A stretch of 64,000 nt of DNA. Origin: a bacterium (GTDB lineage: Bacteria > Bacillota > Clostridia > Lachnospirales > Lachnospiraceae). The DNA lies in contig JAMPGX010000007.1 of the NCBI GenBank assembly GCA_023663725.1, positions 62,001-126,000 of the forward strand. Direction: 5' to 3'. The position numbers were made by a program, and so were the translations under genes. The notes under the pieces are model-generated. The model was not told the origin of the DNA. It worked only from the letters and a program-made list of their open reading frames with translations, and did no database searches. Below are positions 5,568-53,907 of the stretch, piece by piece. Position 1 is the stretch's first letter; each line of letters opens with the position of its first letter.

Positions 5568-5795
5568 ATTTGTGAAAGCTTAGTTGCTGTGCTAGTGTCA
5601 TTGTGCATATTGTATATTCCAACGCAGACACGCTTTCGCTTCGTGAAAAACGTAACAGTGCTAAGTTCGTGCCGAATAAATTCGGTAAACCTCACTAAGC
5701 ACTGACGTTTTTCAGGTGCAACTTTGTTGCACGAAGTCTGCTTATGGAATATACAATATGCACAATTCGGTACTGGCAAAAATGGTTTCACAAAT
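5568..5795 (+). mobile_element. MITE-like palindromic element, subfamily 1, copy A
   Basis: A 228-bp non-coding palindrome with perfect 10-bp ends (ATTTGTGAAA 5568-5577 and TTTCACAAAT 5786-5795). Inside are the family arms TTGTGCATATTGTATATTCC and their complement. The inner stem GAAAAACGT / ACGTTTTTC differs from copies B-E, but pairing is kept. It sits 6 bp after the ATPase stop and could serve as its 3' UTR. No flanking duplication was found for this copy. Confidence 0.8.
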
Positions 5796-5980
5796 GCTTG
5801 ATTGTAGGATAGTGGAAGAGGAGCCAGGTGTGCTTTGCGAGTTTTAGATGGAATTGCGGAGATAGTTGTGATAAAATCTATAAATGAAGCATCATATTTA
5901 GGGTAGAAAGAGCAATCCCGAATGTGATTCTTCTCGATTGTACCAAGATGCAGAGCTATTTCCTGACAATTTACGGTACA

Positions 5981-6166
5981 TAGATATTTGCAAAACTGTT
6001 TTTTTGCCAGTACCGAATTGTGCATATTGTATATTCCATAAGCAGACTCTTTCGAACCGTCGGTACTTAGATGCCGTATTTTGGCATCTTATGTACCGCT
6101 ACGGTGAGAACGAAGCGAAAGCGTGTCTGCTTATGGAATATACAATGTGTACAATGACACTCGCAT
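5981..6166 (-). mobile_element. MITE-like palindromic element, subfamily 1, copy B (one end lost)
   Basis: Inverse orientation to copy A. It starts at TAGATATTTGCAAAAC (5981) and contains the arms, the CCGTCGGTAC / GTACCGCTACGG stem, and an inner hairpin GATGCC...GGCATC. The other end stops at GACACTCGCAT (6166), about 20-25 bp short of the expected terminus, and runs straight into the GGAGG of the next gene. The stretch 5796-5980 between A and B holds nothing I recognise. Confidence 0.75.
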
Positions 6167-6181
6167 GGAGGAAAAGAGAGT

Positions 6182-7612
6182 ATGCTACCAGAGGTTTTTC
6201 AACAGAGAATGCGGTCCCAGCTGGGAGCGGAATATGCGGAATATGTAAGGAGCCTTGAGGGAGAGCGCCACAGGGCGCTGCGGGTCAATCCCCTGAAGGG
6301 GAGCGGGGACCCGACGGAGGCCAGGGAGCGCTTTCTGCGGCTGAGCCCATGGGAGCTGGAGCCTGTGCCCTGGGAGGCGGCCGGCTTTTACTACACCCAG
6401 GAGGGTCCCGGCAGACATCCCTATCACGAGGCGGGTGTATACTATATCCAGGAGCCCAGCGCCATGGCGCCAGTGGCTTTTCTGGAGCCTCAGCCGGGGG
6501 AGCGGGTGCTGGATCTGTGCGCCGCTCCGGGGGGAAAGAGCACGCAGATCGCCGGACGGATGCGGGGAGAAGGGCTGCTGGTGAGCAATGAGATTCATCC
6601 TCAGAGAGCGCGGATCCTGTCGGAGAATGTGGAGCGGCTGGGGATATGCAACTGTCTGGTCCTGAACGAAGCTCCGGAGCGGCTGGCGGAGCTTTTTGCC
6701 GGTTATTTTGACCGTGTTCTGGTGGACGCGCCCTGCTCAGGGGAAGGGATGTTCCGCAAGAACGAGAACGCGGGGGAGGAGTGGAGCCCAGAGAACGTGG
6801 AGCGGTGCGCCGCCCGCCAGGACGGAATACTGGACTGTGCTGTCGCTATGCTGCGGCCCGGCGGCAGGCTGGTGTACTCCACCTGCACCTTCGCGCCTGC
6901 AGAGGATGAGGGGAGCGTGAGCAGGCTGATTGGCAGGCATCCAGAGATGGAGCTTCTGGAGCCGGCGGATTGTCTGGGAGCGGCTGGCGATAGTCTGGCC
7001 ACATGGGGATTTACATCTGGCAGACCGGACTGGATTGAGGCGCCGGTCTGCGGTATCGACAGGACATTACGCCTCTGGCCCCACAGACTGCGGGGGGAAG
7101 GACATTATCTGGCGGCGCTGCAAAAGAGCGGCGCATCGTCCGGTGCAGTACACGCTCTGCACGGGATAGAGCGAGGCATACCGGAGAAGGAGTGCCGCGA
7201 ATATCTGGAGTTTGCGGCGGAGGCGCTGACTGAGAAGCCGGAGGGCATCTATCTGCGTTTTGCAGATCACCTCTATCTGGCGCCGCGGGACATGCCCTCC
7301 CTGAAGGGCCTGCATGTCCTGCGGTCCGGCCTGCATCTGGGCACCGTGAAAAAGCACCGCTTCGAGCCCGCTCACGCGCTGGCGCTGGCTCTATCCCCCG
7401 GTGAGGTGCGCCGCCACTGCCCTGTGAGCGTCGGGGGCTTGCAGGGGGATGCGTCCGCTCGGGCGGACGCCTATTTAAGCGGCCAGACTTTTTCCCATAC
7501 AGGGGAGGGAGGCTGGCATCTGATCACGGTGGACGGCTACAGCCTGGGCTGGGGTAAGCTGGCCGGCGGTGTGATGAAAAACCATTACCCCAAAGGATTG
7601 AGAAAATTGTGA
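6182..7612 (+). CDS. RsmB/NOP-family rRNA cytosine-C5 methyltransferase (RsmF-like)
   Basis: A 476-residue SAM-dependent RNA methyltransferase. The N-terminal domain (RALRVNPLKG) is followed by the Rossmann catalytic domain: DLCAAPGGKSTQ binds SAM, DAPCSGEGMFRK carries one catalytic cysteine, and LVYSTCTFAPAEDE the second (the PCS and TCT cysteines of the NOL1/NOP2/sun family). The C-terminal third, with LRSGLHLGTVKKHRFEPAHA and GWGKL near the end, is the PUA-like extension found in RsmF/YebU-type enzymes. It probably methylates 16S rRNA; the exact base is not predictable. Start ATG 6182 is preceded by GGAGG at 6167-6171, which directly follows truncated element B. Confidence 0.9.
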   Translation: MLPEVFQQRMRSQLGAEYAEYVRSLEGERHRALRVNPLKGSGDPTEARERFLRLSPWELEPVPWEAAGFYYTQEGPGRHPYHEAGVYYIQEPSAMAPVAFLEPQPGERVLDLCAAPGGKSTQIAGRMRGEGLLVSNEIHPQRARILSENVERLGICNCLVLNEAPERLAELFAGYFDRVLVDAPCSGEGMFRKNENAGEEWSPENVERCAARQDGILDCAVAMLRPGGRLVYSTCTFAPAEDEGSVSRLIGRHPEMELLEPADCLGAAGDSLATWGFTSGRPDWIEAPVCGIDRTLRLWPHRLRGEGHYLAALQKSGASSGAVHALHGIERGIPEKECREYLEFAAEALTEKPEGIYLRFADHLYLAPRDMPSLKGLHVLRSGLHLGTVKKHRFEPAHALALALSPGEVRRHCPVSVGGLQGDASARADAYLSGQTFSHTGEGGWHLITVDGYSLGWGKLAGGVMKNHYPKGLRKL

Positions 7613-7700
7613 TTGAGAAAAATATAAAAATTTCTCTTCTCATCTGGCTGAAAAGATGGTAATATAGATAGAAAGTAATTCGGAAAAGAAAGGTTTGAAT

Positions 7701-8786
7701 ATGGACAAGATCATTTTGACAGGGGACAGGCCCACGGGCAGACTGCATGTGGGGCACTATGTGGGTTCCCTGAGAAGAAGGGTGGAGCTGCAGGACAGCG
7801 GCGAGTACAGCAGGATTTTCATCATGATAGCGGACGCTCAGGCGCTCACGGACAATTTTGAGAATCCGGACAAGGTGCGTCAAAATATCGTGGAAGTGGC
7901 GCTGGACTATCTCTCCTGTGGGCTGGACCCGAATAAGTCTACTCTGTTTATCCAGTCCCAGATTCCGGAGTTGACGGAGCTTTCTTTTTACTATATGAAT
8001 CTGGTGACAGTGTCCCGCCTCCAGCGCAACCCCACGGTTAAGAACGAGATTCAGATGCGCAACTTTGAGGCCAGTATCCCGGTGGGATTTTTTGCCTATC
8101 CCATCAGCCAGGCCGCTGATATTACGGCGTTCAAGGCAGATACGGTTCCCGTGGGGGAGGATCAGCTGCCCATGATCGAACAGGCGAGAGAGATCGTGCA
8201 TAAGTTCAACACAGTCTATGCGCCCGTGCTGGTGGAGCCCAAGGCGCTGATCCCTCAGAACGAGGCGTGCCTGCGGCTTCCCGGCGTGGATGGCAAGGCT
8301 AAGATGAGCAAGTCTCTGGGGAACTGTATCTATCTGTCGGACGCTCCGGAGGATGTGAGAAAGCAGGTTATGAGCATGTACACGGACCCGCAGCACCTGA
8401 TGGTATCTGATCCCGGTCATCTGGAGGGCAACACGGTGTTCACCTATTTGGACGCGTTCTGCAGGGATGAGCATTTCGAGAGATATCTGCCGGAATATAC
8501 CTGTCTGCAGGAGCTGAAGGATCACTATACCCGAGGCGGTCTGGGGGATGTGAAGGTGAAAAAGCTGTTGAACAATATTCTGCAGGAGGAGCTGGAACCC
8601 ATCCGGCAGCGGCGCAGAGAGTATGAGAAGGATATTCCTGAGATTTACAACATCCTGCGGCGCGGCAGCGAGGCGGCCAGAGAAGTGGCGGCGCAGACGC
8701 TCTCTGAGGTCAAGGCGGCCATGCGGATCAACTATTTTGACGATATGGATTTGATAGAGGCACAGGTTAAAAAATATGAGGCGTAA
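7701..8786 (+). CDS. trpS: Tryptophanyl-tRNA synthetase
   Basis: A 361-residue class I aminoacyl-tRNA synthetase that charges tRNA-Trp. The signature [15 protein letters not shown] near residue 10 contains the HIGH-type motif, and AKMSKSLGN near residue 200 is the KMSKS loop. The start is ATG 7701 with GAAAGG 7 nt upstream, rather than an in-frame TTG six bases earlier. I looked for a T-box leader and saw none: the 88 bp upstream are AT-rich and lack the conserved T-box sequence. The next gene overlaps its end by 11 bp. Confidence 0.96.
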
Positions 8787-9300
8787 TATAGAAGAGGAGA
8801 GGGCATCGACTCTCGAAGAAGAAAAAATGAATCCGATGCAGGCGATGATCGGCCTGGTAATACTGATAGTGGTCGTGTTTATTTTCTGCTTTGCCGTGTG
8901 GAAGATCACACATGCCAACCGGTCCGGCCCATTGCCTGGGCAGAATGTGGACAGCTCTCAGGACTCCATTGTGAACCGGACTTCCCAGCCCTCCGAGACC
9001 GGAAGCACCGAGAGCTCCGAGGAGACGGGCGGAGAGTCTTCCGAGGAGTCTGAGCCGGAGAATGCGCTGGGCATGACTTTTGACGCGGTGGATGAATATG
9101 TCACGGCCAAGGATGTGACCAATCTGCGCAGTGAGCCCAGTACCGATCAGGGTCAGCTCACAGTGGTGACACAGCTGAGCAATGGACAGAATGCCCGCAG
9201 GACAGGCATCAATCCGAACACCGGTTGGTCGCGCCTGGAGTATAATGGGCAGGTGGTCTACGCGGTGAGCCAATATCTGATCGTCGCGGAGATGGAATAG
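8776..9300 (+). CDS. Membrane-anchored SH3-domain protein
   Basis: A 174-residue protein with one N-terminal membrane helix (about residues 23-45, [17 protein letters not shown]). A Ser/Glu-rich spacer (about 60-95) follows, then a bacterial SH3 (SH3b) domain recognisable by [10 protein letters not shown] and a final [10 protein letters not shown] strand. SH3b domains usually bind peptidoglycan; the domain should face outward. The start overlaps trpS by 11 bp, suggesting coupling. ATG 8827, preceded by GAAGAAG, is an alternative that loses 17 residues but keeps the membrane helix. A strong terminator follows. Confidence 0.75.
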
Positions 9301-9312
9301 CATAAGGCTTCT

Positions 9313-9346
9313 AAAACCGGAACAGCTTGTGGCTGTCCGGTTTTTT
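9313..9346 (+). terminator. Rho-independent terminator after the trpS operon
   Basis: AAACCGG-A-ACAGC / GCTGTCCGGTTT stem with a TTGT loop, followed by six T residues. Confidence 0.85.
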
Positions 9347-9371
9347 GATACATTTTTTTGAACAAAAAGGG

Positions 9372-9378
9372 CATACTA
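9372..9378 (+). promoter_or_regulatory. Candidate sigma-G -10 element of spoVAD
   Basis: CATACTA matches the sigma-G -10 consensus (CATAMTA), which fits a forespore gene. A convincing -35 at 17-18 bp is not visible, so this is tentative. Confidence 0.35.
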
Positions 9379-9433
9379 CTTCGCAAAAGAATCTCTGACA
9401 TCGGGAGTTCTATAGCAGAAAGGGAGTATGGCA

Positions 9434-10468
9434 ATGAATCAGATCAAAGGGAAATCGAGTATTGAATTGGAGAATCAAGTATATATTTTGAGCAGCGCCA
9501 GCATCGTGGGCAAAAAGGAGGGAGAGGGCCCTCTGGGGAACCTGTTTGACATGGTGGGGGAGGATGACCTCTTTGGCTGCAATACCTGGGAGGAGGCGGA
9601 AAGCAACCTTCAAAAAGATGCGGTGTATATGGCCTTGGGTAAGGCCGGCAGGAAACAGGAGGATATTCGCTACCTGTTTGCCGGAGATCTGCTCGGGCAA
9701 TCGATTGCCACCTCCTTTGGGCTCTCCTCCTATCAGATTCCGCTGTTTGGCGTCTATGGCGCCTGTTCCACCTGCGGGGAATCATTGGCGCTGGGAGCGA
9801 TGACCGTCTCCGCGGGCTATGCGGACTATGTGGCCTGCGTGACCTCCAGCCATTTTGCCAGTGCGGAAAAGGAATTCCGTTTTCCTCTGGAATACGGCAA
9901 TCAGAGGCCGCTGTCCGCCAGCTGGACCGTCACGGGAAGCGGCGCTTTTATCCTGGGGGGCAAGCGGGAAAATGACTCTCAGGGGCGGCCTCCGAGAGCC
10001 GTGATCACAGGAATCACAGTGGGTAAGATCGTTGATTACGGACTGAAGGATTCCATGAATATGGGGGCGTGTATGGCGCCTGCGGCAGCGGACACTCTGG
10101 CGCAGCATTTTCAGGACTTTGGCGCGCAGCCGGAGGACTATGACAGAATCATCACCGGAGATCTGGGCAGCGTAGGACAGACCGTGCTGCTGGATCTGCT
10201 GCGGGATAAGGGCTACGACATCGCCAGACAGCATATGGACTGTGGAATTGAGATTTTCGACGCCCAGTCACAGGACACTCACGCGGGGGGAAGCGGCTGC
10301 GGCTGTAGCGCCGTGACTCTGTCCGCATATATTCTCAGGCAGCTCGAACAGCATCACTGGAAAAAAGTATTGTTTATGCCCACGGGAGCGCTCCTCAGCA
10401 AGACCAGCTTTAACGAGGGCAAGAGCGTGCCGGGAATCGCCCATGCTCTGGTGCTGGAGGCTCTGTAG
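9434..10468 (+). CDS. spoVAD: Stage V sporulation protein AD
   Basis: A 344-residue SpoVAD, a thiolase-fold protein of the SpoVA channel that moves dipicolinic acid into and out of spores. Diagnostic stretches are FAGDLLGQ, FGVYGACSTCGESLALGAM, LYHF-equivalent RPLSASWTVTGSGAF and the C-terminal DTHAGGSGCGCSAV. ATG 9434 is preferred over 9428, since AGGGAG (9421-9426) is 7 nt from it and only 1 nt from 9428. No spoVAC is next to it: upstream are the SH3 and trpS genes. A small unknown gene separates it from spoVAE. Confidence 0.94.
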   Translation: MNQIKGKSSIELENQVYILSSASIVGKKEGEGPLGNLFDMVGEDDLFGCNTWEEAESNLQKDAVYMALGKAGRKQEDIRYLFAGDLLGQSIATSFGLSSYQIPLFGVYGACSTCGESLALGAMTVSAGYADYVACVTSSHFASAEKEFRFPLEYGNQRPLSASWTVTGSGAFILGGKRENDSQGRPPRAVITGITVGKIVDYGLKDSMNMGACMAPAAADTLAQHFQDFGAQPEDYDRIITGDLGSVGQTVLLDLLRDKGYDIARQHMDCGIEIFDAQSQDTHAGGSGCGCSAVTLSAYILRQLEQHHWKKVLFMPTGALLSKTSFNEGKSVPGIAHALVLEAL

Positions 10469-10530
10469 GACCGGAAATATTACAAATTGGTTAAAAATAT
10501 CACAAAAATAATTAAGATTTGGAATTCCTC

Positions 10531-10559
10531 TTGCATTGCCTGCCTTTTTTTAGTACAAT
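10531..10559 (+). promoter_or_regulatory. Candidate sigma-A promoter before the 86-aa gene
   Basis: TTGCAT (10531-10536), a 17-bp spacer and TACAAT (10554-10559), ending 33 bp before the start at 10593. Confidence 0.55.
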
Positions 10560-10592
10560 GCTTTTCAAAAGGGTTGGAAGGCGGCGGGGAAC

Positions 10593-10853
10593 ATGCGCAG
10601 GATGGAATTCAAGATGGAGAGGCAGGGGCTTCTGGAGGTGGGCCAGGATGTGATGGTCACAGAGGGGCTCCTGCCCAGTAATTATTATTACACCATTGAT
10701 CCCTGTCTGGCGATGTCGGCCAATATCCCCTTTCGCTATCGCTTGAAGTCCTCTGGGGGCAGAGTTATCGACATACAGGAAAAGCCCCGTGGCTTCTATG
10801 TGATGGTAGAGTTCGATGAGCCGGAAGTAGATATGACAAAATATGCGCCGTGA
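10593..10853 (+). CDS. Unknown 86-aa protein between spoVAD and spoVAE
   Basis: I do not recognise this protein. It is polar and has no membrane segment. The pattern of short hydrophobic runs (GGRVIDIQEK, GFYVMVEFDEPE) suggests a small beta-rich fold. It has a credible promoter at 10531-10559 and a G-rich ribosome binding site (GGCGGGG) 5-6 nt before ATG 10593, so it is likely real. Its place between two spoVA genes hints at a spore-related role, but the sigma-A-like promoter argues for vegetative expression. A second in-frame ATG lies at 10602. Confidence 0.6.
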   Translation: MRRMEFKMERQGLLEVGQDVMVTEGLLPSNYYYTIDPCLAMSANIPFRYRLKSSGGRVIDIQEKPRGFYVMVEFDEPEVDMTKYAP

Positions 10854-10876
10854 TACATAAGGCATTACCGCCCTCA

Positions 10877-10907
10877 GGAATAGATTCATTGGTAATCGCA
10901 GATACTA
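10877..10907 (+). promoter_or_regulatory. Candidate sigma-G-like promoter of spoVAE
   Basis: GGAATA (10877-10882), an 18-bp spacer and GATACTA (10901-10907). Each box is one base from the sigma-G consensus TGAATA / CATACTA. Confidence 0.35.
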
Positions 10908-10958
10908 CCTGATATAAAGCTTTGTCGTTAGTAAGGCAGATGAAAAGGAGTGAAGCGA

Positions 10959-11315
10959 ATGGATTATATCAATGCGTTTTGGGTTGGGGGATTGATCTGT
11001 GCTCTGGTGCAGATTTTGATGGAGAAGACGAAGATGATGCCGGGAAGAATCATGGTGCTGCTGGTAGTGCTAGGAGCATGTATCAGTGTATTTGGCTGGT
11101 ATGAGCCCTTTCAGGAGTTTGCCGGCGCCGGCGCAAGCGTGCCGCTGCTGGGATTTGGCAACGTGCTGATGAAGGGAGTCAAGGAGGCCGTGGACGAACA
11201 GGGGCTTCTGGGACTGTGGGCTGGAGGCCTGAAGGCGGGAGCGGTGGGAACCTCCGCAGCGCTGATTTTCGGTTATCTGGCAAGCCTTGTTTTTAATCCC
11301 AAGGCAAAGAACTGA
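10959..11315 (+). CDS. spoVAE: Stage V sporulation protein AE
   Basis: A 118-residue integral membrane protein with about three helices and the family stretches FWVGGLICALVQILMEKTKM, VLGACISVFGWYEPF and VPLLGFGN. SpoVAE is a subunit of the dipicolinic acid channel in the spore inner membrane. ATG 10959 has AAGGAG 8 nt upstream; an in-frame GTG at 10950 overlaps that site and is rejected. It is followed 46 bp later by the LTA-synthase-like gene. Confidence 0.93.
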   Translation: MDYINAFWVGGLICALVQILMEKTKMMPGRIMVLLVVLGACISVFGWYEPFQEFAGAGASVPLLGFGNVLMKGVKEAVDEQGLLGLWAGGLKAGAVGTSAALIFGYLASLVFNPKAKN

Positions 11316-11361
11316 AAAGAATAATTTATGTATTTGAGAAACAAAGGATGAATGAGAAGCT

Positions 11362-13551: not shown

Positions 13552-13555
13552 ATGG

Positions 13556-14059
13556 TCATAGATTTTCGTAGGCAATATTTTTGCGGGACAGATATCCGGT
13601 GAAGGCTTTGTCCCAGATGATATCAGGCTCCTTGTTCATCACGAAGGTATGGTAGGCTGTCCCTGTTGTCAACAGGACATAGGAGCCGTCGTACTTGACA
13701 GTGAGCACGAAAGTCTTGATCTGTTCGGGAGTTAGATCGCAATGGTTGGCGGCAAGCAGCTTGCCCACCAGTTCCGGCTTGAGATGCAGGACAAATTTGA
13801 AATACAGCGGAGTGTGAGTGCCCTTGATCAGCTGGAACAGCAGTCCCTTCATCTCCTGCCAGAGAGCGAAGTCATAGGGGCAGAAGTCGGGGATACTCAG
13901 CTCCTCCGAGGTGTAGAAATCTCTGTTGACATGTCCGTCTATAGTGTAGGTGTGAGCTGTGGAGACGACAGCCTCCGCCAACAGGAATGGGTCGAAGCAA
14001 TCTCCTGTTAGAAGTTGCGCCATGAAATTTTTGGTGTTGGTGATTTGTAGTGCCAGCAT
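13556..14059 (-). CDS. DUF5721 family protein
   Basis: A 167-residue protein of unknown function. The stretch NFMAQLLTGDCFDPFLLAEA, followed by TYTIDGHVNRDFYTSEE, is the pattern I associate with DUF5721, a family seen in Lachnospiraceae. ATG 14059 is chosen because GGAAAGG lies 9 nt upstream and the conserved part begins there. An in-frame ATG at 14152 would add 31 low-complexity residues and overlap the upstream lipoprotein gene by 8 bp (ATGAATGA), so coupled translation from there is possible. It converges with the LTA-synthase-like gene. Confidence 0.75.
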   Translation of the reverse strand: MLALQITNTKNFMAQLLTGDCFDPFLLAEAVVSTAHTYTIDGHVNRDFYTSEELSIPDFCPYDFALWQEMKGLLFQLIKGTHTPLYFKFVLHLKPELVGKLLAANHCDLTPEQIKTFVLTVKYDGSYVLLTTGTAYHTFVMNKEPDIIWDKAFTGYLSRKNIAYENL

Positions 14060-18088: not shown

Positions 18089-18161
18089 GAATAAAGCTGG
18101 CAGGAAGGAAACAGTTGTTTTTTACATAAAAATAGAGTATGATGGCAAGAGAGAACTTACC

Positions 18162-18389
18162 TAGCCGATTGCGAAAGCCAGTTACTATGCAAGTGTCATT
18201 GTGCACATTGTACATTCCAACGCAAGCACGCTCTCGCTCCGTTCTCACCGTAGCGGTACATAAGATGCTAAAATACAGCATCGAGGGTTGCTAGCAACCC
18301 TAGGTACCGACGGCTCGAAAGGGCATTGCTTATGGAATATACAATATACACAATTCGGTACTGTCGAAAAAGGGTTTCGCAATTGTCTA
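18162..18389 (+). mobile_element. MITE-like palindromic element, subfamily 1, copy C, with 11-bp target duplication
   Basis: A 228-bp element with ends TAGCCGATTGCGAAA and the inverse TTTCGCAATTGTCTA. It is flanked exactly by GAGAACTTACC on the left (18151-18161) and right (18390-18400), a perfect 11-bp duplication flush with TAG...CTA. Removing the element and one repeat restores a normal argC leader. Inside are the TTGTGCACATTGTACATTCC arms and the CCGTAGCGGTAC / GTACCGACGG stem. The 565-bp gap 17855-18419 otherwise holds only a terminator and a promoter. Confidence 0.9.
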
Positions 18390-18419
18390 GAGAACTTACC
18401 TAATGAAAGGAAGAACGGT

Positions 18420-19478
18420 ATGATTAGAGCGGGAATCATAGGGGCCACCGGGTATGCGGGAGGCGAATTGGTGCGCATATTGACAAGGCACAGGGATGTG
18501 GAGATCAGGTGGTATGGCTCCAGAAGCTATATCGATCAGAAATATTATCAGGTCTATCAGAACATGTTTCAAATAGTGGAGGATGTGTGTAAGGATGACA
18601 ATCTGGCGCAGCTGGCCGAAGAGGTGGATGTGATTTTTACGGCTACGCCCCAGGGCTTTCTGGCTGGCATTCTGACAGAGGAGCTTTTGAGGAAGGTTAA
18701 GATCGTGGATTTGTCCGCGGACTACCGCATCAAGGATGTGGAGGTGTACGAGCAGTGGTATCAGATTGAGCATAAATCGCCTCAGTTTATCACCGAGGCC
18801 GTTTATGGTCTCTGCGAGATCAACCGGAATCAGATAGACAGTAGCACCAGACTGGTAGCGAACCCCGGCTGTTACACCACCTGCTCTATTCTGACGGCAT
18901 ATCCGCTGGTCAAGGAGGGGCTGATCGACGTGGACACGTTGATTGTGGACGCCAAGTCCGGCACTTCAGGGGCGGGGCGGGGTGCAAAGGTACCCAACCT
19001 GTACTGTGAGGTGAACGAGAACATCAAGGCTTACGGTGTGGCCAGCCACAGGCATACCCCGGAGATCGAGGAACAGCTGGGCTATGCGGCGGGGCGTCAG
19101 CTGACAATCAATTTTACGCCTCATTTAGTGCCCATGAACAGGGGCATCCTGGTGACAGAGTATGCAAAGCTGGTTCCTGGGGCGGGCGGTAGCCTGCCCA
19201 CCTATGAGGAGATCAAAGCGGTATATGATAAGTATTATGCAGGAGAGCGTTTTGTCCGCGTCCTGGAGAAAGGCGTCTGTCCTGAGACGAAGTGGGTAGA
19301 GGGCAGCAATTATGTGGATGTGAACTTTGTCATAGATGAGCGCACGGGCCGGATTATCATGATGGGCGCTCTGGACAATCTGGTGAAGGGCGCGGCTGGA
19401 CAGGCCGTGCAGAATATGAACCTGCTGTTTGGACTGCCCGAGAGCGAGGGCTTGGAGTTGGTGCCCTGTTTCCCGTAG
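18420..19478 (+). CDS. argC: N-acetyl-gamma-glutamyl-phosphate reductase
   Basis: A 352-residue NADPH enzyme for the third step of arginine synthesis. N-terminal GIIGATGYAGGELVR is the nucleotide-binding loop; NPGCYTT holds the catalytic Cys151; HRHTPEIEEQL near residue 200 is the second conserved block. ATG 18420 follows AAAGGAA; an in-frame reading from 18288 is only translation through mobile element C. It heads the argC-GNAT-methyltransferase-GNAT-argJ-fprA-argB-argD run, all in one direction. Confidence 0.96.
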   Translation: MIRAGIIGATGYAGGELVRILTRHRDVEIRWYGSRSYIDQKYYQVYQNMFQIVEDVCKDDNLAQLAEEVDVIFTATPQGFLAGILTEELLRKVKIVDLSADYRIKDVEVYEQWYQIEHKSPQFITEAVYGLCEINRNQIDSSTRLVANPGCYTTCSILTAYPLVKEGLIDVDTLIVDAKSGTSGAGRGAKVPNLYCEVNENIKAYGVASHRHTPEIEEQLGYAAGRQLTINFTPHLVPMNRGILVTEYAKLVPGAGGSLPTYEEIKAVYDKYYAGERFVRVLEKGVCPETKWVEGSNYVDVNFVIDERTGRIIMMGALDNLVKGAAGQAVQNMNLLFGLPESEGLELVPCFP

Positions 19479-37356: not shown

Positions 37357-37602
37357 AACTGACAGTTTGGACGGCTGATTCTACCGGATTTGTAGCATAT
37401 CAACTGTCGGTTCATGTTAAAAACATAAAAAATTCTGTACAGTTGATAGTGAATTGCGAAACTCTCTCCGCAAGTGACGGGACTGGTCAATATATACAAA
37501 AACGGGCTCCGATGCAGTGGCAAGTCGCCCTTATTTTGTATATATTGCCCATTCCCTGTTCCAGAAAAGAGTCGTTTCGCAATCAACTATGTACAGTTGA
37601 TA
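37357..37602 (+). promoter_or_regulatory. Possible operator repeats upstream of the XRE gene
   Basis: AACTG-A-CAGTT (37357-37367), TATCAACTGT (37398-37407), and its complement ACAGTTGATA at 37439-37448 and again at 37593-37602. The last two are partly the target duplication of the inserted element. The inverted copies may be sites for autoregulation by the XRE protein. Confidence 0.35.
37447..37589 (+). mobile_element. MITE-like palindromic element, subfamily 2, copy 1, with 11-bp target duplication
   Basis: A 143-bp element with ends TAGTGAATTGCGAAAC and GTTTCGCAATCAACTA. It is flanked by TGTACAGTTGA at 37436-37446 and 37590-37600, a perfect 11-bp duplication flush with TAG...CTA. The inner arms are CAATATATACAAAA and TTTTGTATATATTG, with GGGC/GCCC next. 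It differs inside from subfamily 1 but has the same terminal motif. It lies 16 bp upstream of the XRE ribosome binding site. Confidence 0.9.
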
Positions 37603-37622
37603 ATAAAAGGAGGGTTCCCGAA

Positions 37623-38030
37623 ATGAATCAGCAAAAAGTAGGAAAGTTTATAGCACAATGTCGGAGAGAAAACGGATATACTCAGGCATCACTCGCTGAG
37701 AGGCTTGGCATTACGGACCGCGCAATCTCGAAATGGGAAAATGGTAAGAGCATGCCGGATGTTTCGATTATGCTGGAACTTTGCGAACTGTTAAAGATCA
37801 ATGTGAACGAGCTCCTGACAGGGGAACATATTATTATGGACAATTATAAAGAAGCTGCGGAAAAAAATCTTGTAGAAATGAGAACACAGGAAGAAAAAGC
37901 GAATGAGAAAGCTCACAAAAAAATGATTGTGATTGGTATTATTTTTGTGATTATGCTTGTGCTTACCTATTTTGCAGGTAAAAACATTGGCGAGGATTTA
38001 GGGACATTTATCTATAATATTTTACATTAA
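37623..38030 (+). CDS. XRE-family helix-turn-helix regulator with C-terminal membrane helix
   Basis: A 135-residue protein. The HTH domain (about 6-62) reads FIAQCRRENGYTQASLAERL then ITDRAISKWENGKSMPDVS, a classic XRE recognition helix. A charged helix leads to one membrane segment (about 100-120, MIVIGIIFVIMLVLTYFAG), so it may work at the membrane. ATG 37623 is preceded by AAAGGAGGG; in-frame sequence back to 37332 only reads through the mobile element. The gene is AT-richer than its neighbours, suggesting it was acquired. Confidence 0.9.
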   Translation: MNQQKVGKFIAQCRRENGYTQASLAERLGITDRAISKWENGKSMPDVSIMLELCELLKINVNELLTGEHIIMDNYKEAAEKNLVEMRTQEEKANEKAHKKMIVIGIIFVIMLVLTYFAGKNIGEDLGTFIYNILH

Positions 38031-47289: not shown

Positions 47290-47317
47290 TTAATGACTAC
47301 ATAATAGGGCTGACAAA

Positions 47318-49138
47318 ATGAGTGAAAAAAGGATCGAGATCAGAAACAGGGCTCTCTTGGTGATCATCGCAGCCCTTCTTGCGGGGTGTCTGACTCTTTG
47401 GACACCCTTTGACAAAGTGGAATATTGGTTCTGTGATCTACTCTATGTAATGGAGAAACCGGTGGATAACCGGATTAAGATCATCGGGATCGACGAAAAG
47501 TCTCTGGAGGAGATGGGGCCTTTCTCCGGCTGGACAAGGCAGCAGGCCGCCGACCTGTTAGACGCTTTTGACAGAGAGCATGCCCCGTCGGTCATCGCAT
47601 TCGATATTAATTTTGTGGGACAGAGGGATGTGGCGGGTGATCGGGCGCTGGCGGAGGCGGCGTCTGTTTTTCCGCATGTGGTGCTGGCCTCCTATATTAA
47701 CTATGGCACAAGGGTGCTGCAGTCGGAGGCGGGGGGATACCAGATTGATACGATGTATGTGGAAGATCTGGAGTTGCCCTATGAAGCTCTGCTTGGCGTG
47801 ACGGCTCATGGCTTTACTAACGCGGTGCAGGACGTGGACAATTATGTCCGGCGTTCTGTGCTGGCAGAAACTATGGATGGCGTCAGGGAGTGGAATTTTG
47901 CCTGGAAAATCTATGACGAATATCAAAGGGCCAATGGGGTGGAAAGCCGTGAACCCCGACAGATAAATGGTATTTACGGTTTTGATTATACTGCCGAGCC
48001 AGGGATGTATGAGGTCTATTCCTATGTGGATGTGGTGGAGGGCAGATGCGATCCGAGGGTGTTTCAGGGCAGTGTCGTTCTGGTGGGGGCGTATGCTCAG
48101 GGGATGATGGACCAATATATGGTTCCTATAGCCAGAGGTACGGTCATGAACGGAGTTGAGGTTCAGGCCAATCATGTGGATGCTCTTCTAAACGGCCGTA
48201 CTTTTGTAATGGCTGACAGATGGCTCCAAGTTCTGGCAGCGTCCTTGATTGTGGGCTTCTATGTATGGCTGGTCAGCCGCCATAGCTTTCTGGTCAACAT
48301 TGTAGGTGGTGTTGCACTGGAGGCGGGGCTGATCATTGCCGCCAAGTGCCTGTACAAAGCGGGAATCTATTGGGGCTGTTTTGTACCCTTCGCGCTGGTG
48401 CTGATCACTTTCTTGACGCGTGTGGCCACGGGGTATCTGACGGAACGCGTCCGCAAGCACAAGATTCTGAGTGTGTTTCGCACATACATGGCGCCTCAGG
48501 TGGTGGACGAACTGGGCAAGAGCGGTAACTACAGGATAGAGCTTGGAGGGCGCGACCGTGTGATCGCCGTGCTGTTTGTGGATATCAGAGGCTTTACTGC
48601 CATGTCCGAGGGACTTTCTCCCGAGAAAGTCGTAGGGATACTGAATCGATATCTGGGAATGGTGACAGAGGCGGTATTTAAAAATGACGGAACCTTGGAC
48701 AAATTTATTGGCGATGCGGTCATGGCCGTCTACAATGCGCCTCTGGACGTGGAGGACTATGCCTGCAAAGCTGTGCAGACCGGCCTGGATATCGTGGCGG
48801 CGGTTGACGGCATCAATGTGGAGCTGAAGAGGGAGTACGGCATAGAGATTGCCTGTGGCGTAGGAGTCCACAGTGGCAGGGCGGTAGTGGGAAATATCGG
48901 CTGTAGCTATCGGATGGATTACACAGCCATAGGAGATACCGTCAACGTGGCGGAAAGGCTGGAGAGCATAGCCAAGGGCGGACAGGTGTTGATCAGCAGG
49001 GAGCTGTACGAACAGGTAAAAGACCGGTATAATGCCGTGTTTGCCGGCAGTCAGAGCTTGAAGGGCAGACAGGAAGGCATGGATGTATTTTTGGTGGAGG
49101 GAGCAAATGGAACAGAAACAGGCGGAGAAAATACTTGA
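47318..49138 (+). CDS. CHASE2-domain class III adenylate/guanylate cyclase
   Basis: A 606-residue protein. TM1 at about 11-28; an extracellular CHASE2 sensor at about 30-295 (IKIIGIDEKSL, VIAFDINFVGQRD); three membrane helices at 303-370; then a catalytic class III cyclase domain from about 410. Metal ligands Asp422 (LFVDIRGFTAM) and Asp466 (DKFIGDAVMAVY), Lys462, Asn543 and Arg547 (TVNVAERLE) are all present, so it should be active. The Lys and the DYTAIGD context favour ATP as substrate. It sits between a FecR protein and a GAF-HD-GYP protein; the latter starts 32 bp inside its end. Confidence 0.92.
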   Translation: MSEKRIEIRNRALLVIIAALLAGCLTLWTPFDKVEYWFCDLLYVMEKPVDNRIKIIGIDEKSLEEMGPFSGWTRQQAADLLDAFDREHAPSVIAFDINFVGQRDVAGDRALAEAASVFPHVVLASYINYGTRVLQSEAGGYQIDTMYVEDLELPYEALLGVTAHGFTNAVQDVDNYVRRSVLAETMDGVREWNFAWKIYDEYQRANGVESREPRQINGIYGFDYTAEPGMYEVYSYVDVVEGRCDPRVFQGSVVLVGAYAQGMMDQYMVPIARGTVMNGVEVQANHVDALLNGRTFVMADRWLQVLAASLIVGFYVWLVSRHSFLVNIVGGVALEAGLIIAAKCLYKAGIYWGCFVPFALVLITFLTRVATGYLTERVRKHKILSVFRTYMAPQVVDELGKSGNYRIELGGRDRVIAVLFVDIRGFTAMSEGLSPEKVVGILNRYLGMVTEAVFKNDGTLDKFIGDAVMAVYNAPLDVEDYACKAVQTGLDIVAAVDGINVELKREYGIEIACGVGVHSGRAVVGNIGCSYRMDYTAIGDTVNVAERLESIAKGGQVLISRELYEQVKDRYNAVFAGSQSLKGRQEGMDVFLVEGANGTETGGENT

Positions 49139-50594
49139 GATAGGGATTCAGTTGACGGTGGAGAGAGATTATGATGAGCTCCTCTCCAAGATCATCGACT
49201 GCGCCATGGAGCTGACAAACTGCGACGGAGGCACGCTCTACCTCTTCGAGAAAGACTGTCTCCAGTTCTGCATCATGAAGAACCGATCTCTGGGAATTGA
49301 TCAGAAGGGGACAAAGGACAAAAAATATCCCCCTGTTGCCATGGATGAGAAGAATATCTGCGCCTACACTGCGATTCACAGGGAGTTCCTCAACATTGAG
49401 GATGCCTACAGCAGCAGTCAGTTCGACTTCAGCGGTCCCAGAGAGTATGACAAGCTCACAGGATACAGGACCAAATCCATGCTGGTATTTCCGCTGATCA
49501 GCCATGAGGAGAAGCTGATCGGTGTGGTGCAGCTGATCAACGCACAGAACGATGCAAATGAGATTATCCCCTTCAGCGCAGACTGTGAGAAGGTGCTGCA
49601 GTCTCTGGGCTCTCAGGCTGCGGTGGCGGTGGCCAACATGCGTTTTGTGCAGGAGATCGAGGATTTGATGATCTCCATCACACAGGTATTCACAGACGCT
49701 ATTGACACGCGTATTCCCTATAACTACTATCATTCGAGAAATGTATACCTGTACGTCAAGATACTTGTTGACTATATCAACGAGCAGCATGAGGCAGGGA
49801 AGACAGAGCATTACTATACCCCAGCCAAGAGGGATGAGCTGTTGATGGCGGCTCTGATGCACGATATCGGTAAGCTGGTGATTCCCAATGATATCATCGA
49901 CAAGACCACCCGACTGGGAGATAAGCTGGATCTGGTGCTGGAGAGGTTTGAGCGTCTCTCTCTGCTATATAATATCGACTATCTGCGGGGCAGGCTGGAC
50001 AAGGATAAGTGGATCGAGAAGAAGAATTATTTTCTGGACGCCAGGGAGCGGGTGGAGGAGATCAACAGGAAGCCCCGCCTCTCGGAGGAAGATACCGCCT
50101 ATATTCAAGCTATGGCGAGGATGAAATATACCGATTCCAACGGCCAGAAGATCAGCTACCTATCTCTTGACGAGGAGGAATGCCTGACTGTAGTCACAGG
50201 CAATCTGACGAGGGCGGAGAGGGAGGTCATCTGCTCCCATGTGGAGTATACCGAGAAATATCTGCGGAAGATGAATTTTGGCGTGCGCTATCCTCACATT
50301 ATCGAGTGGGCCGGAGCCCATCACGAGTTTCTGGATGGCAGCGGCTATCCCAGAGGGCTCAAGGGGGAGGAGATACCTTTTGAGGCCAGGATCCTGGTGG
50401 TGGTGGATGTGTTTGAGGCGCTGACCAGCGCCGACAGGCCCTACAAGAAATCCATGGAAGAGAAAAAGGCTTTCGCTGTTCTGGACGATATGGCAGCTCA
50501 GGGCAAGATCGACGCAGAGGTGCTGGGCATGTTCAAGGAGGCGGTTGCCAACTTGCGAGGGGATATAAAACTGTTTTTTCATCATGAGGATTGA
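49107..50594 (+). CDS. GAF and HD-GYP-type phosphohydrolase
   Basis: A 495-residue soluble protein. The GAF domain (about 8-185) has DYDELLSKIIDCAMELTNCD and LIGVVQLINAQND. The HD domain follows: MHDIGKLVIPNDIIDK, a large insert (about 275-365), then the GYP part HHEFLDGSGYPRGLKGEEIP and VVVDVFEALTSADRPYK. HD-GYP enzymes hydrolyse c-di-GMP and sometimes other cyclic nucleotides. The start ATG 49107, with GGAGGGAG upstream, overlaps the cyclase by 32 bp. Tight coupling to a cyclase makes a cyclic-nucleotide phosphodiesterase role attractive, but unproven. Confidence 0.9.
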   Translation: MEQKQAEKILEIGIQLTVERDYDELLSKIIDCAMELTNCDGGTLYLFEKDCLQFCIMKNRSLGIDQKGTKDKKYPPVAMDEKNICAYTAIHREFLNIEDAYSSSQFDFSGPREYDKLTGYRTKSMLVFPLISHEEKLIGVVQLINAQNDANEIIPFSADCEKVLQSLGSQAAVAVANMRFVQEIEDLMISITQVFTDAIDTRIPYNYYHSRNVYLYVKILVDYINEQHEAGKTEHYYTPAKRDELLMAALMHDIGKLVIPNDIIDKTTRLGDKLDLVLERFERLSLLYNIDYLRGRLDKDKWIEKKNYFLDARERVEEINRKPRLSEEDTAYIQAMARMKYTDSNGQKISYLSLDEEECLTVVTGNLTRAEREVICSHVEYTEKYLRKMNFGVRYPHIIEWAGAHHEFLDGSGYPRGLKGEEIPFEARILVVVDVFEALTSADRPYKKSMEEKKAFAVLDDMAAQGKIDAEVLGMFKEAVANLRGDIKLFFHHED

Positions 50595-50633
50595 TGCAGT
50601 ATCGCAGGCAGACTTGCGATATATGGGGGAATA
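50595..50633 (+). repeat. 39-bp hairpin repeat, copy 1
   Basis: TGCAGTATCGCAGGCAGACT and onward, with TATCGCA pairing to TGCGATA, followed by GGGGGAATA. A second copy is at 54027-54065. Here the G-run is the ribosome binding site of the next gene. Confidence 0.65.
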
Positions 50634-50636
50634 GCC

Positions 50637-51413
50637 ATGATAGAGATCATTCCTGAAATAGACAGAATCGAAGAATACGTGAAATTGGCGGAGCAGTATT
50701 CTCTCGGTTTTGAATATAATGATTTTTTTGCTCCAGAGTTGCTGGATGACAGGGAGGCCATCAGGGAGAGAATCAGCCGATACAGGCGGCTGGGGCGTCC
50801 GGAAAAGACGGATACCATGCACGGTGCATTTTTTGATATTGTTCCTTTTAGCTGGGATAGCGGAATCAGCAGGCACAGCCTGTACCGAATGCAGCAGTCG
50901 GCGGAGATAGCGGCCGAGCTTGGCTGTCGGGCGGTGATCTTTCACGCGGGCCTCAGGCCACAATTCGCGGGCAATGAACGCTATTATCGCAACTGGCTGG
51001 AGACTATGTCCCGTGCGGCGGAGGAGTTGACCGCCCAGTGGGAGGTAGAGATCTACTATGAGAACGTGGAGGAGCATTCTCCCGCGGAGCTGCGAGAGCT
51101 GGCGGACAGGCTTTGTGAGGAGAGTCGTTTTGGTATCTGCCTTGATGTCGCCCATATGCTGTTGACAGGAGGAGAGCCGGAGGAATGGTTCCGTGTCCTG
51201 GCTCCGTATATCAGGCATTTTCATCTCAACGACCATCATTTGAAGGAGGATGAGCATCTGGCCCTGGGATGCGGAAGCATTGACTGGAAAGACATCCTTG
51301 GCAGGATCAGCCGCCATGAGCTACAGGATAGAAGCATACTGTTAGAGGTGAATGGACTGGAAAAGATAACTTTGAGTCTGGAATATCTGCACAAGATATG
51401 TACTTTTGCCTGA
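50637..51413 (+). CDS. Sugar phosphate isomerase/epimerase-like TIM-barrel protein
   Basis: A 258-residue protein of the xylose isomerase-like (AP endonuclease 2) superfamily. Typical strands: GFEYNDFF, TMHGAFFD, AVIFHAGL, IYYENVEEHS, ICLDVAHML, IRHFHLNDHH and ILLEVNGL; the Glu, Asp, His and His residues could hold a divalent metal. The substrate is unknown. It follows the HD-GYP gene by 42 bp, with copy 1 of the 39-bp hairpin between. Confidence 0.85.
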   Translation: MIEIIPEIDRIEEYVKLAEQYSLGFEYNDFFAPELLDDREAIRERISRYRRLGRPEKTDTMHGAFFDIVPFSWDSGISRHSLYRMQQSAEIAAELGCRAVIFHAGLRPQFAGNERYYRNWLETMSRAAEELTAQWEVEIYYENVEEHSPAELRELADRLCEESRFGICLDVAHMLLTGGEPEEWFRVLAPYIRHFHLNDHHLKEDEHLALGCGSIDWKDILGRISRHELQDRSILLEVNGLEKITLSLEYLHKICTFA

Positions 51414-51423
51414 GAGATAAAAG

Positions 51424-51454
51424 AGCCCGCGGGAGTCACCCCGCAGGCTTTTTT
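51424..51454 (+). terminator. Terminator after the FecR-cyclase-HD set
   Basis: AGCCCGCGGG pairs with CCCGCAGGCT, followed by TTTTTT. Confidence 0.85.
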
Positions 51455-51484
51455 CATGTATAATGAGTGAAACGGCGCGGGCTG

Positions 51485-52171
51485 TCAGCTCTGGGCCTGG
51501 GGCCTGGAGTTGCCTCTGTCGCGCAGCGCTCCTCTGAGGTTGGCGATCACATCCTGACGGTATACCAGCACATACATGGCTGAGGCCATGATCAGACCAG
51601 TCAGCACATCAAACATGGAGTGCTGCTTGAGGAACACAGTGGATAAGATGATGGATATACACAGCGCCAGCGAGGAATTGCGCAGCCAGCGCTTTTTCCC
51701 CAGCGAGCAGCGGCATAGCGCCGTATGCGCGCCGATGGAATTGTACACATGAATGCTGGGCCAGAGGTTGGTGGGCGTATCCATACGCCACAGTCGGGCT
51801 ACCATTTGTGTGAATACATTTTCTCGGGGCAGTACATAGGGCCGCAGATGATGTCCGTTGGGCCACAGGGTTGACACCAGCAGAAAGACGGTCATTCCCG
51901 TGAACAGGAATATACAGGCCCGCTTGTATTCCGGCTTGTTGCGCAGGAAGAGATACACGACCACGGAACTCACATAGAGAAACCACAGCAAGTAGGGAAT
52001 GATAAATACCTCGCAGAAGGGAATGTGGTCATCTATCGCCATGTGAATTACATGGTAGTGTCTGGTAACCGTCCGTTCCAGATAGCAGAACCAAGTCATA
52101 TAGAATATGCCATACAGTATTAGCGGAATACCGTGTTTATACTTTTGATAAAATATCTTTATTTTTTCCAT
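51485..52171 (-). CDS. PAP2 family membrane phosphatase
   Basis: A 228-residue protein with about five to six membrane helices. The PAP2 motifs appear as LRPYVLPRE (Lys/Arg region, diverged), LWPSIHVYNS (PSxH) and KQHSMFDVLTG (HxxxD). Family members remove phosphate from lipid phosphates such as phosphatidic acid or undecaprenyl pyrophosphate. It is on the same strand as, and downstream of, a lipid kinase, which may be meaningful. AAGGAAATGGGG precedes the start, though at a long distance. Confidence 0.82.
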   Translation of the reverse strand: MEKIKIFYQKYKHGIPLILYGIFYMTWFCYLERTVTRHYHVIHMAIDDHIPFCEVFIIPYLLWFLYVSSVVVYLFLRNKPEYKRACIFLFTGMTVFLLVSTLWPNGHHLRPYVLPRENVFTQMVARLWRMDTPTNLWPSIHVYNSIGAHTALCRCSLGKKRWLRNSSLALCISIILSTVFLKQHSMFDVLTGLIMASAMYVLVYRQDVIANLRGALRDRGNSRPQAQS

Positions 52172-52318
52172 ATTTTAAACTTATCCCCATTTCCTTGTGA
52201 ATATGCATTGGATGTCCTTGCAAACTGTTTTAACGATCTTTAATATATCACAAAATTGTCTTTTTACAAGGGGAAAAATGTAAAATTAAGAAAAAACTCA
52301 GGATTATTAAGATTTCCT

Positions 52319-53257
52319 TTAGAGATACATCTGCAGCGCCTGTCGCTGACAGGTGACGACCAGACTGTCACTGCGGCGGGCCACTTCGCCGTCCGTGTGT
52401 ACCCACAGGGGGGCGGAGGTCTGGATTTCCACTTTGCTGGCCCGGTAGGGCGTGATGCCGCGGAACATATAGTGTTTGCCGAAGAAGGCGGTGGGCAGCG
52501 CCATCAGGATCAGAGCCTTGGACAGATCCCCTACGACGCACAGATCCAGCAGGCCGTCCCGATAGTCTGCACTGGGCGCAAATTTAAAGCCGCCGCCCTC
52601 GTACATATGGTTCATGAAGGCCACGAACAGGATCTTCCGTATGGAGATGGGTTCGCCGTCGTCCAGACGAATGCTGCAGGAGATGGCTTTGCTGGCAAAG
52701 AGCTGTTTGAGCGCTATGCCCAGATAGGTCAGCTTGCCCAGACCGAGCTTATTGAGGAAGCCCTTCATCTGAGAGCGGTTGGTCTCCTCGCAGACCGCGG
52801 CGTCGAAGCCGATACCGCTGCTGACGATAAAGCGGTGACTGCTGCCATCCCCGTAGGTGGTGGTGCCGATATCCACAGCGGTGGCTTTGTCCGCCTCCAG
52901 GATCAGGCGAAGCGCTTTCAGCGGATCGCGTGGGATGGGCATATCGCGAGTAAGGTCATTGCCGGAGCCGATGGGAATATAGCCCAAAATCACTTTAGAG
53001 AGGTCGCAGATACCCTGCAGTGCCTCGTCTATGGTGCCGTCACCGCCCAGGATCACGATGCGGTGCGGCTCCGCGCAGGCTGCGGATGATATCTCGCGCA
53101 CCAGAGCTGTGATATCTCCCGCGTTTCTGGAAAAATGTGCCTCGTAGGGCGTCTGCGCCGCCTGCAGATAGGGCTCGATGACAGTGTCCCACAGCTTTTG
53201 CCCCTTGCCGGAGCGGGATACCGGATTCAATATGAAGTGATATAGAGCCTTATCCAT
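52319..53257 (-). CDS. Diacylglycerol/lipid kinase (DgkB/YegS family)
   Basis: A 312-residue kinase. NPVSRSGKGQ near the N-terminus, ILGGDGTIDEALQG (GGDGT at 71-75) for ATP, and GSGNDLTRDMPIP for the substrate lip are all standard. The C-terminal beta domain holds HTDGE (His-x-Asp-Gly-Glu), the usual end motif. It phosphorylates diacylglycerol or a related lipid. ATG 53257 is preceded by AAGGAG. The 147 bp between it and the PAP2 gene hold no recognised signal. Confidence 0.93.
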   Translation of the reverse strand: MDKALYHFILNPVSRSGKGQKLWDTVIEPYLQAAQTPYEAHFSRNAGDITALVREISSAACAEPHRIVILGGDGTIDEALQGICDLSKVILGYIPIGSGNDLTRDMPIPRDPLKALRLILEADKATAVDIGTTTYGDGSSHRFIVSSGIGFDAAVCEETNRSQMKGFLNKLGLGKLTYLGIALKQLFASKAISCSIRLDDGEPISIRKILFVAFMNHMYEGGGFKFAPSADYRDGLLDLCVVGDLSKALILMALPTAFFGKHYMFRGITPYRASKVEIQTSAPLWVHTDGEVARRSDSLVVTCQRQALQMYL

Positions 53258-53289
53258 CGTTTTTTCTCCTTGTAGTCATGTGCGATATT

Positions 53290-53498
53290 TAGGTGATTGT
53301 GAAAGCTGGTTATTTTGCGAGTGTCATTGTGCATATGGTATACTCCAACGCAGACACGCTCTCGCTTCGTTCTCACCGTAGCGGTACATAAGATGCCAAA
53401 AAACGGCATCTAAGTACCGACGGTTCGAAAGAGTCTGCTTATGGAATATACCATATGCACAATTCGGTACTGGCAAAAAACGGTTTTACAATTATCTA
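53290..53498 (+). mobile_element. MITE-like palindromic element, subfamily 1, copy D
   Basis: A 209-bp element from TAGGTGATTGTGAAA to the inverse end TTTTACAATTATCTA. Arms TTGTGCATATGGTATACTCC and complement; stem CCGTAGCGGTAC / GTACCGACGG; inner hairpin GATGCC...GGCATC. The 11 bp on each side do not match, so the target duplication has decayed or been rearranged. It is the first of three elements in a row in the 939-bp gap 53258-54196. Confidence 0.8.
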
Positions 53499-53509
53499 AC
53501 TGAGTACTA

Positions 53510-53674
53510 TAAATGATTGCGAATCGTTGCTTGTTAGTGACATGGCTGCCCAATAAATACAAAAACAGGTTCGGAAGTAATCTGCTTTGCTAATTTACTT
53601 CAATGCGGTGGCAAGTTGCCGTTATTATATATATTCTCTCACTGTTTCTCCAAAAGGTGTTTTGCGATTGTCTA
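53510..53674 (+). mobile_element. MITE-like palindromic element, subfamily 2, copy 2
   Basis: A 165-bp relative of 37447-37589: ends TAAATGATTGCGAA and TTTGCGATTGTCTA, shared ATACAAAAAC, GCGGTGGCAAGT and TTCTCCA-type segments. It carries an extra internal palindrome GAAGTAA...TTACTTC that copy 1 lacks. There is no matching flanking repeat. Confidence 0.7.
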
Positions 53675-53686
53675 TGCTAACACATA

Positions 53687-53907
53687 TAGGAGCTCGTAAA
53701 ACTCCTTTTTAGCAGTATCGAATGGTGTATATTGTATATTCCATAAGCAGTGCTCTTTCGAACCGTCGGTACTTAGCGAGGTCTGCCGAATTCATTCGGC
53801 ACGAGCTTAGTACCGTTACGGTGAGAACGAAGCGAAAGCGTGCCTGCGTTGGAATATGCAATGTGCACCATGACACTGGCAAAGTAACTGAGCTTTGCAA
53901 TCCCCTT
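53687..53907 (-). mobile_element. MITE-like palindromic element, subfamily 1, copy E
   Basis: A 221-bp element in inverse orientation, from TAGGAGCTCGTAAAAC to GAGCTTTGCAATCCCCTT. Its inner module (TGCCGAATTCATTCGGCA region) is the same type as in copy A, while its middle stem is the type of B-D, so modules have been mixed. Confidence 0.75.

Follow-up and report, generated by a model that had tools for sequence, protein, structure and literature searches.

Palindromic repeats of a Lachnospiraceae genome as probable partners of an IS1182-like insertion sequence addressed to a Shine-Dalgarno octamer

What moves a family of short palindromic repeats that have no apparent coding capacity, and what decides where they land? 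The question is raised by a 64,000-nucleotide stretch of the Lachnospiraceae assembly GCA_023663725.1 (contig JAMPGX010000007.1, positions 62,001 to 126,000 of the forward strand; hereafter the window), in which an earlier note made from the sequence alone had listed seven such elements. Upon direct reading of the sequence, we found elements at all seven places. We propose, with a probability of roughly 0.9, that they are miniature inverted-repeat transposable elements (MITEs) that would be moved in trans, as non-autonomous partners, by an IS1182-like DDE insertion sequence (IS) of Lachnospiraceae addressed to the octamer GAAAGGAG. The proposal rests on sequence: shared ends, target site duplications (TSDs), phasing, polarity, stacks and absence of copies from a relative. 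The notable feature is the target, an oriented insertion at an exact 4-bp offset from a Shine-Dalgarno octamer. This target had escaped the earlier note, and it also accounts for the tandem triple at 53290-53907.

In the mechanism that we propose, the IS transposase would act in trans on two slightly different ends, a left type TAGGCGTTTGCGAAAC and a right type TAGGTAATTGCGAAAC. Its address would be the octamer as DNA, which is normally the Shine-Dalgarno sequence of a gene. One strand would be cut 4 bp upstream of the octamer and the other 9-15 bp further upstream (mode 11), the interval between the cuts would be duplicated, and the left end of the IS would face the octamer. The element would land in a 5′ leader and leave the ribosome-binding site and the coding sequence intact. 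Since the octamer, the 4-bp spacer and one copy of the TSD would survive, the site could be used again, giving stacks spaced by one TSD length. We infer both catalysis in trans and recognition at the DNA level by the transposase itself.

The repeats form a real family, far larger than the seven copies first reported. Exact matches to the end motif TAGNNNATTGYGAAA number 64 (38 + 26) in the 3.63-Mb genome, against 1 (0 + 1) for the pattern read backwards. The refined motif TAGNYRWTTGYGAAA, with one mismatch allowed, yields 94 + 80 = 174 matches against 9 + 7 = 16 in the control, and the excess of ∼158 end motifs suggests roughly 80 copies. We took the stretches around exact end matches, 59 segments that total 247 kb and include the window, and paired the ends mechanically, such that a few pairs may join ends of neighboring elements; two overlapping pairings of 52 were dropped before counting. 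The remaining 50 non-overlapping copies are mostly 143-247 bp long, multi-copy and bounded by terminal inverted repeats, as MITEs are. The terminal motif TAG-N3-ATTGYGAAA that had been ascribed to all seven window copies is exact at both ends in two of them (18162-18389 and 37447-37589), while in the other five it is partial or lost. Division of the family into two interiors fared better genome-wide: among 54 elements (the 50 paired copies and four window intervals), 39 fall into one cluster, eight of exactly 143 bp into a second and seven into neither. The copy at 53510-53674, previously placed with the second subfamily, did not cluster with the 143-bp set, and the blocks that it has in common with that set were seen by eye only. 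Interiors akin to both subfamilies are present in other genomes of the genus. Near-complete self-folding also held in part, with six of the seven window copies folding beyond dinucleotide shuffles (z −4.8 to −11.7) and 53510-53674 showing no significant fold by the same comparison (z +0.4).

Four tiny elements of 55-91 bp consist of little beyond two ends (G000:C20:2358-2428, C19:12629-12683, C9:36877-36967 and C47:54271-54359, G000 being the genome studied here). Three of these are flanked on one side by the octamer at 7/8 or better, so that a unit hardly longer than two ends may be enough for mobility. Several contigs of this assembly also break ∼40-55 bp inside an element end, for example at C5:99836, C8:85134, C10:40, C19:39, C25:40 and C28:22505. 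These breaks indicate that IS and MITEs are probably under-assembled and that our copy counts are lower bounds.

The mobility that had been proposed for the repeats is borne out by their flanks and by comparison with a relative. A TSD with a score of at least 5 (10-15 bp, mode 11) flanks 32 of the 50 MITE copies, compared with 14 of 2450 mismatched flank pairs, and a perfect TSD of at least 9 bp flanks 19 of 50, compared with 4 of 2450 swapped pairs. In G021, a genome of the same genus that is syntenic with the window region, the copies at 5568, 5981 and 18162 and the three-copy stack are absent though the flanking genes align. The seventh locus, at 37447, says nothing on absence, because ∼750 bp including a neighboring gene is missing from G021 as well; near this locus, past the next gene, G021 has a separate subfamily-2 insertion flanked by a TSD of its own. 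These observations bear on whether the repeats are instead structured 5′-leader RNAs, repeated cis-regulators whose place upstream of Shine-Dalgarno sequences reflects regulation and not insertion. Strong folding in six window copies and the occurrence of repeats in the 5′ leaders of many genes are what such regulators would look like. The earlier note had named the pattern that would mark them as RNAs, conserved intergenic positions with no empty sites, and six of the seven copies are missing from the corresponding intergenic regions of G021. Moreover, TSDs flank the copies, a transposase-bearing IS shares both their ends and their insertion spot, the repeats form stacks, and an old copy has lost its fold. 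Lastly, a scan of the window with Rfam at gathering thresholds returned a single tRNA and no described RNA family at the repeat sites. Taken together, we regard the regulatory RNA explanation as scarcely credible and return to transposition.

The candidate mover is an IS of ∼1.75 kb with a 485-amino-acid (aa) DUF772/DDE transposase that is widespread in Lachnospiraceae. An 1813-bp element with MITE-type ends in another genome (G005:C2:57807-59619) encodes its transposase in two frames and lacks a clear TSD; it was set aside as the reference, and intact copies from G000 and G016 were aligned instead. With the G005 protein as query, we found a 485-aa open frame in the genome under study (G000:C44), with an IS left end at 1664, as well as open frames in G016. 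The search for an IS with matching ends that the earlier note had called for was thus successful: both ends are seen in relatives, and in the repeats' own genome an autonomous element sharing the MITE ends is recognized from its left end and the intact frame of the transposase, a single protein of 485-496 residues. In the G005 copy (L062:1450-2936) the two frames overlap, and the split reflects either decay or a programmed frameshift; the other aligned copies have single frames. Among 26 transposases analyzed at E ≤ 0.001, DUF772 was detected in all 26 and DDE_Tnp_1 in 13, DDE_Tnp_1_6 being the one further domain found. At the same threshold the NCBIfam IS1182 model matched 26 of 26, and three intact proteins scored singly reached 78, 82.3 and 81.4 bits, below that model's cut-off of 270 bits. 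Residues D147, D288 and E427 are invariant across the 26 proteins and are, at a guess, the putative catalytic triad. An ISAs1-type transposase on contig C43, the sole match to PF01609 over cut-off in the genome, was also considered as the mover and rejected, as its contig lacks these ends within two mismatches.

Relatives of the IS in the GTDB collection occupy 114 stretches, from which 79 loci were kept; they are labelled mostly as Lachnospiraceae genera or unclassified Clostridia, and one as Bacteroidales. Family-wide, 31 of 348 genomes, the own genome included, have a match to the IS, and many of these matches are fragments. Five plasmid records match the transposase, two of them over most of the query, and there was no match in phages or in solved structures. 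The transposase copies on Butyrivibrio proteoclasticus pCY360 (L265) and on the Roseburia sp. 831b plasmid (L264) do not appear among the genes of the PLSDB tables, whose listing is incomplete. We chose 53 of the 79 IS loci for enough flank or match. The left end is exact in 48 of these, the right end in 48 and both in 44, and a perfect TSD of 9-13 bp is present in 30. Both the end types of the IS and its TSDs of 9-13 bp match those of the MITEs. This supports the earlier suggestion that one transposase serves both subfamilies, which it would move in trans.

The region between the left end of the IS and the transposase start has features of its own. A hairpin is followed by a T-run and then by an anti-Shine-Dalgarno arm (CAACTCCT or TATCTCCT), which pairs with the transposase's own ribosome-binding site, with compensatory changes, across a TGGTATAAT-like −10 box. 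Leaders with the hairpin and arm occur at L079:1525-1664 and L080:4108-4241 (both on the minus strand) and in L119, L124, L132, L144, L145, L151, L158, L164 and L170. Transposase genes of IS10 and IS50 are protected against read-through, and the arrangement looks like such a device, which would be its putative function. In L237 (minus orientation), two left ends at 1270 and 1357, 87 bp apart, lie ahead of a single transposase, and outside each of them there is a Shine-Dalgarno-like sequence (6/8); possibly one left end was inserted or duplicated beside the other.

To locate the target, we aligned 66 reconstructed insertion sites, 32 from MITEs (TSD score at least 5) and 34 from IS (TSD score at least 7). 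The alignment has one signal at a constant offset: on the left side of the IS left end it reads CTCCTTTC, and next to MITEs it reads GAAAGGAG. The TSD logo had raised the possibility of an AT-rich or promoter-like target, which was dropped, the conserved signal being the octamer outside the TSD. The octamer reaches 7/8 in 53 of the 66 sites, and in 50 of these the octamer starts exactly 4 bp past the TSD. The variance of this gap is 0.06 against 1.16 for TSD length, which implies that the position of one cut is set and that of the other varies. The signal is also polar. With left ends found by pattern in all 79 loci, the octamer is present at 7/8 or better 13-17 bp from the end in 51 of 62 IS left-end flanks, and within 10-20 bp in 1 of 59 right-end flanks (Fisher p 9e-22); a looser octamer core is found in 59 of 62 and 3 of 59, respectively. 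In new flanks, a list that leaves out flanks already seen, the match L249, which is not at a left end, and L263, which is the same insertion as L231, 8 of 13 have the octamer at 7/8 or better, always at a distance of 14-16 bp; all four copies in the complete genome G379 are among these eight.

The MITEs follow the same rule. In their own genome, 34 of 50 sites have the octamer at 7/8 or better within 12-19 bp, compared with 172 of 20000 random positions (0.86%), and 43 of 50 reach at least 6/8, compared with 8.3% at random. Six of the seven copies below 6/8 are stack members. For MITEs that have one end of each type and the motif, the motif lies beside the left-type end in 16 of 20. In relatives, 7/8 or better is reached at five of nine single left-type ends and at one of eight single right-type ends, and among 14 two-ended copies eight reach 7/8 and 11 reach 6/8, with L229 left out because its limits were those of a BLAST match and not the element ends.

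Does this phasing reflect a choice made at insertion, or survival afterward? Insertion might be unselective, with selection keeping the copies just upstream of ribosome-binding sites, where they do the least damage. Sites backed by an open reading frame (ORF) are indeed over-represented: 34 of the 43 MITE sites with 6/8 or better have a start codon and an ORF (50 aa or more) behind the octamer, and 40 of the 60 IS flanks with 7/8 or better (of 78 distinct flanks) have an ORF of 40 aa or more, against 19 of 51 octamer matches in the window, for which a stricter limit of at least 80 aa was applied. Some selection is therefore likely on top of targeting. As the whole explanation it is highly improbable, because selection could not produce the exact 4-bp gap or a motif confined to the left end, and because 8 of the 60 IS octamer sites have no start codon 2-17 nt behind them. 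Those eight sites also count against the idea that the same elements reach their address through translation or the ribosome, for example on an initiating mRNA, instead of through DNA read by the transposase. That idea draws on the identity of the octamer with the Shine-Dalgarno consensus and on the ORFs behind two-thirds of the IS sites (40/60), while a cut precise to ∼1 bp would fit protein-DNA contact better; we hold the idea to be very unlikely. The simplest reading is that the octamer is read as DNA, that it is here often a Shine-Dalgarno sequence, and that selection removes harmful insertions.

Stacked copies are consistent with repeated use of one address. At all 13 junctions where a right end is followed by a left end no more than 40 bp away, the two are 8-13 bp apart, which is one TSD length, as would arise if the octamer, spacer and TSD stay usable after each insertion. 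The stack at C33:142387-142760 contains three copies of one 11-bp sequence, one copy having a mismatch. New copies entering at the gene side should leave gene-proximal members best preserved. The stack in the window fits this expectation, its end mismatches rising outward from 0/1 through 2/2 to 4/4, which is weak evidence that stacks grew in this order.

The individual window copies illustrate the arrangement. The subfamily-1 MITE at 18162-18389 (228 bp, a member of the 39-element cluster) is flanked by an 11-bp TSD, GAGAACTTACC, at 18151-18161 and 18390-18400. The octamer GAAAGGAA (7/8) follows at 18405-18412 on the plus strand, 4 bp past the TSD, which puts it 15 bp from the end of the element, and behind it lies argC (18420-19478, plus strand), encoding N-acetyl-gamma-glutamyl-phosphate reductase (NCBIfam TIGR01850 above cut-off). 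Similarly, the subfamily-2 MITE at 37447-37589 (143 bp, in the eight-element cluster) has an 11-bp TSD, TGTACAGTTGA, at 37436-37446 and 37590-37600, with the octamer AAAAGGAG (7/8) 4 bp past the TSD at 37605-37612 (plus strand) and a helix-turn-helix regulator gene behind it at 37623-38030 (plus strand; Pfam HTH_19 and HTH_3 above cut-off). The stack stands upstream of a YegS-type lipid kinase gene on the minus strand (52319-53257; NCBIfam TIGR00147 above cut-off), whose octamer (6/8, minus strand) at 53266-53273 is 16 bp from the first element. That element, the gene-proximal and best preserved subfamily-1 member at 53290-53498, is followed by an 11-bp spacer of one TSD length (53499-53509), the degraded middle member (53510-53674), a 12-bp spacer (53675-53686) and the gene-distal, oldest-looking subfamily-1 member (53687-53907). 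A scan of the stack gave seven promoter-like and four terminator-like matches against shuffle means of 1.8 and 0.8, from which we make no functional claim. At the other side of the window, 5568-5795 is an old subfamily-1 MITE with degenerate ends, none recognizable within two mismatches. In the subfamily-1 MITE at 5981-6166, the left end deviates by two mismatches and the right end is unrecognizable; directly downstream is the ribosome-binding site of an RsmF-type methyltransferase gene (6182-7612, plus strand).

Several observations weigh against the proposal that an IS1182-like transposase moves the MITEs to the octamer. No transposition has been observed. Contig C44 ends inside the IS, and the right end and TSD were not seen in the own genome. 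By BLAST, the MITEs have essentially just the terminal 13-25 bases in common with the IS, so their interiors are not evident IS deletions. A TSD with a score of at least 5 is lacking in 18 of 50 copies, and no exact empty site could be aligned in G021, because the intergenic DNA has diverged. The octamer motif was discovered on the same set from which most of its counts come. It is not matched at 7/8 in 11 of 62 IS left flanks, 5 of the 13 new flanks reach just 5-6/8 with a weaker Shine-Dalgarno-like sequence, and the right-type end stands beside the motif in 4 of 20 asymmetric MITEs. Of eight stacks in which an octamer can be seen, five have the better preserved copy next to the gene, two are ties and in one the gene-proximal copy is the worse, and the spacers of the window stack no longer match each other.

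How does this system compare with known ones? The IS resembles the IS1182 family, which includes IS1272, in its match to the NCBIfam model, its DUF772 domain and its length, and departs from it in scoring 78-82 bits against the cut-off of 270. According to an excerpt of PMC5678879, IS1272 replaces inverted-repeat targets without TSDs; unlike it, the IS described here duplicates 9-13 bp beside a Shine-Dalgarno octamer. TnGBS and the related ISLre2 and ISKra4 are described, in the excerpt of PMC3942029, as Mutator-like elements that insert in one orientation 15-17 bp from a sigma-A −35 box and spare genes. They too are oriented DDE elements at a fixed distance from a gene-expression signal, whereas the signal here is a Shine-Dalgarno octamer and the transposase has DUF772 and, weakly, DDE_Tnp_1; no Mutator-type transposase domain was detected among the 26 proteins at E ≤ 0.001. 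Likewise, the fixed motif here is GAAAGGAG, 4 bp from the TSD, and not a position 15-17 bp upstream of a −35 box, such boxes not having been searched for at these sites. The ISAjo2 group of the IS1202 family is dif-addressed, with the XerC site of dif as target, a 5-bp TSD and a TnsB-like transposase (abstract of PMC10132070), and our IS shares none of these. The pneumococcal RUP and BOX and the Correia elements are short palindromic interspersed repeats that are often clustered, and a resident IS has been proposed to mobilize RUP in trans (excerpt of PMC3049150). The likeness to our MITEs extends to all three properties; their ends and IS families differ, and that excerpt describes no Shine-Dalgarno-phased target for them. 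ISSau2 was considered as a Shine-Dalgarno-linked IS and rejected, its AAAGGAG being part of a primer in the excerpt of PMC5771124.

Addressing to a gene-expression signal is known for few bacterial transposons, and those that we met are promoter- and dif-addressed; among the matches listed from the open-licence PubMed Central literature, no IS or MITE is described as addressed to Shine-Dalgarno sequences. We consider it likely, though with less assurance than the partnership of MITEs and IS, that the DDE transposase of a Lachnospiraceae IS group recognizes a Shine-Dalgarno octamer as its address in the DNA and makes a cut 4 bp upstream, leaving re-enterable, time-ordered stacks and mobile hairpin leaders that may rewire expression, and that this is the first ribosome-binding-site-addressed transposon system known. 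If true, such addressing would explain how the elements multiply at low cost to the host, and it would offer, immediately in front of genes, a natural place for insertion at which the ribosome-binding site stays intact. It would also imply that hairpin leaders have been inserted in front of many genes in gut Lachnospiraceae.

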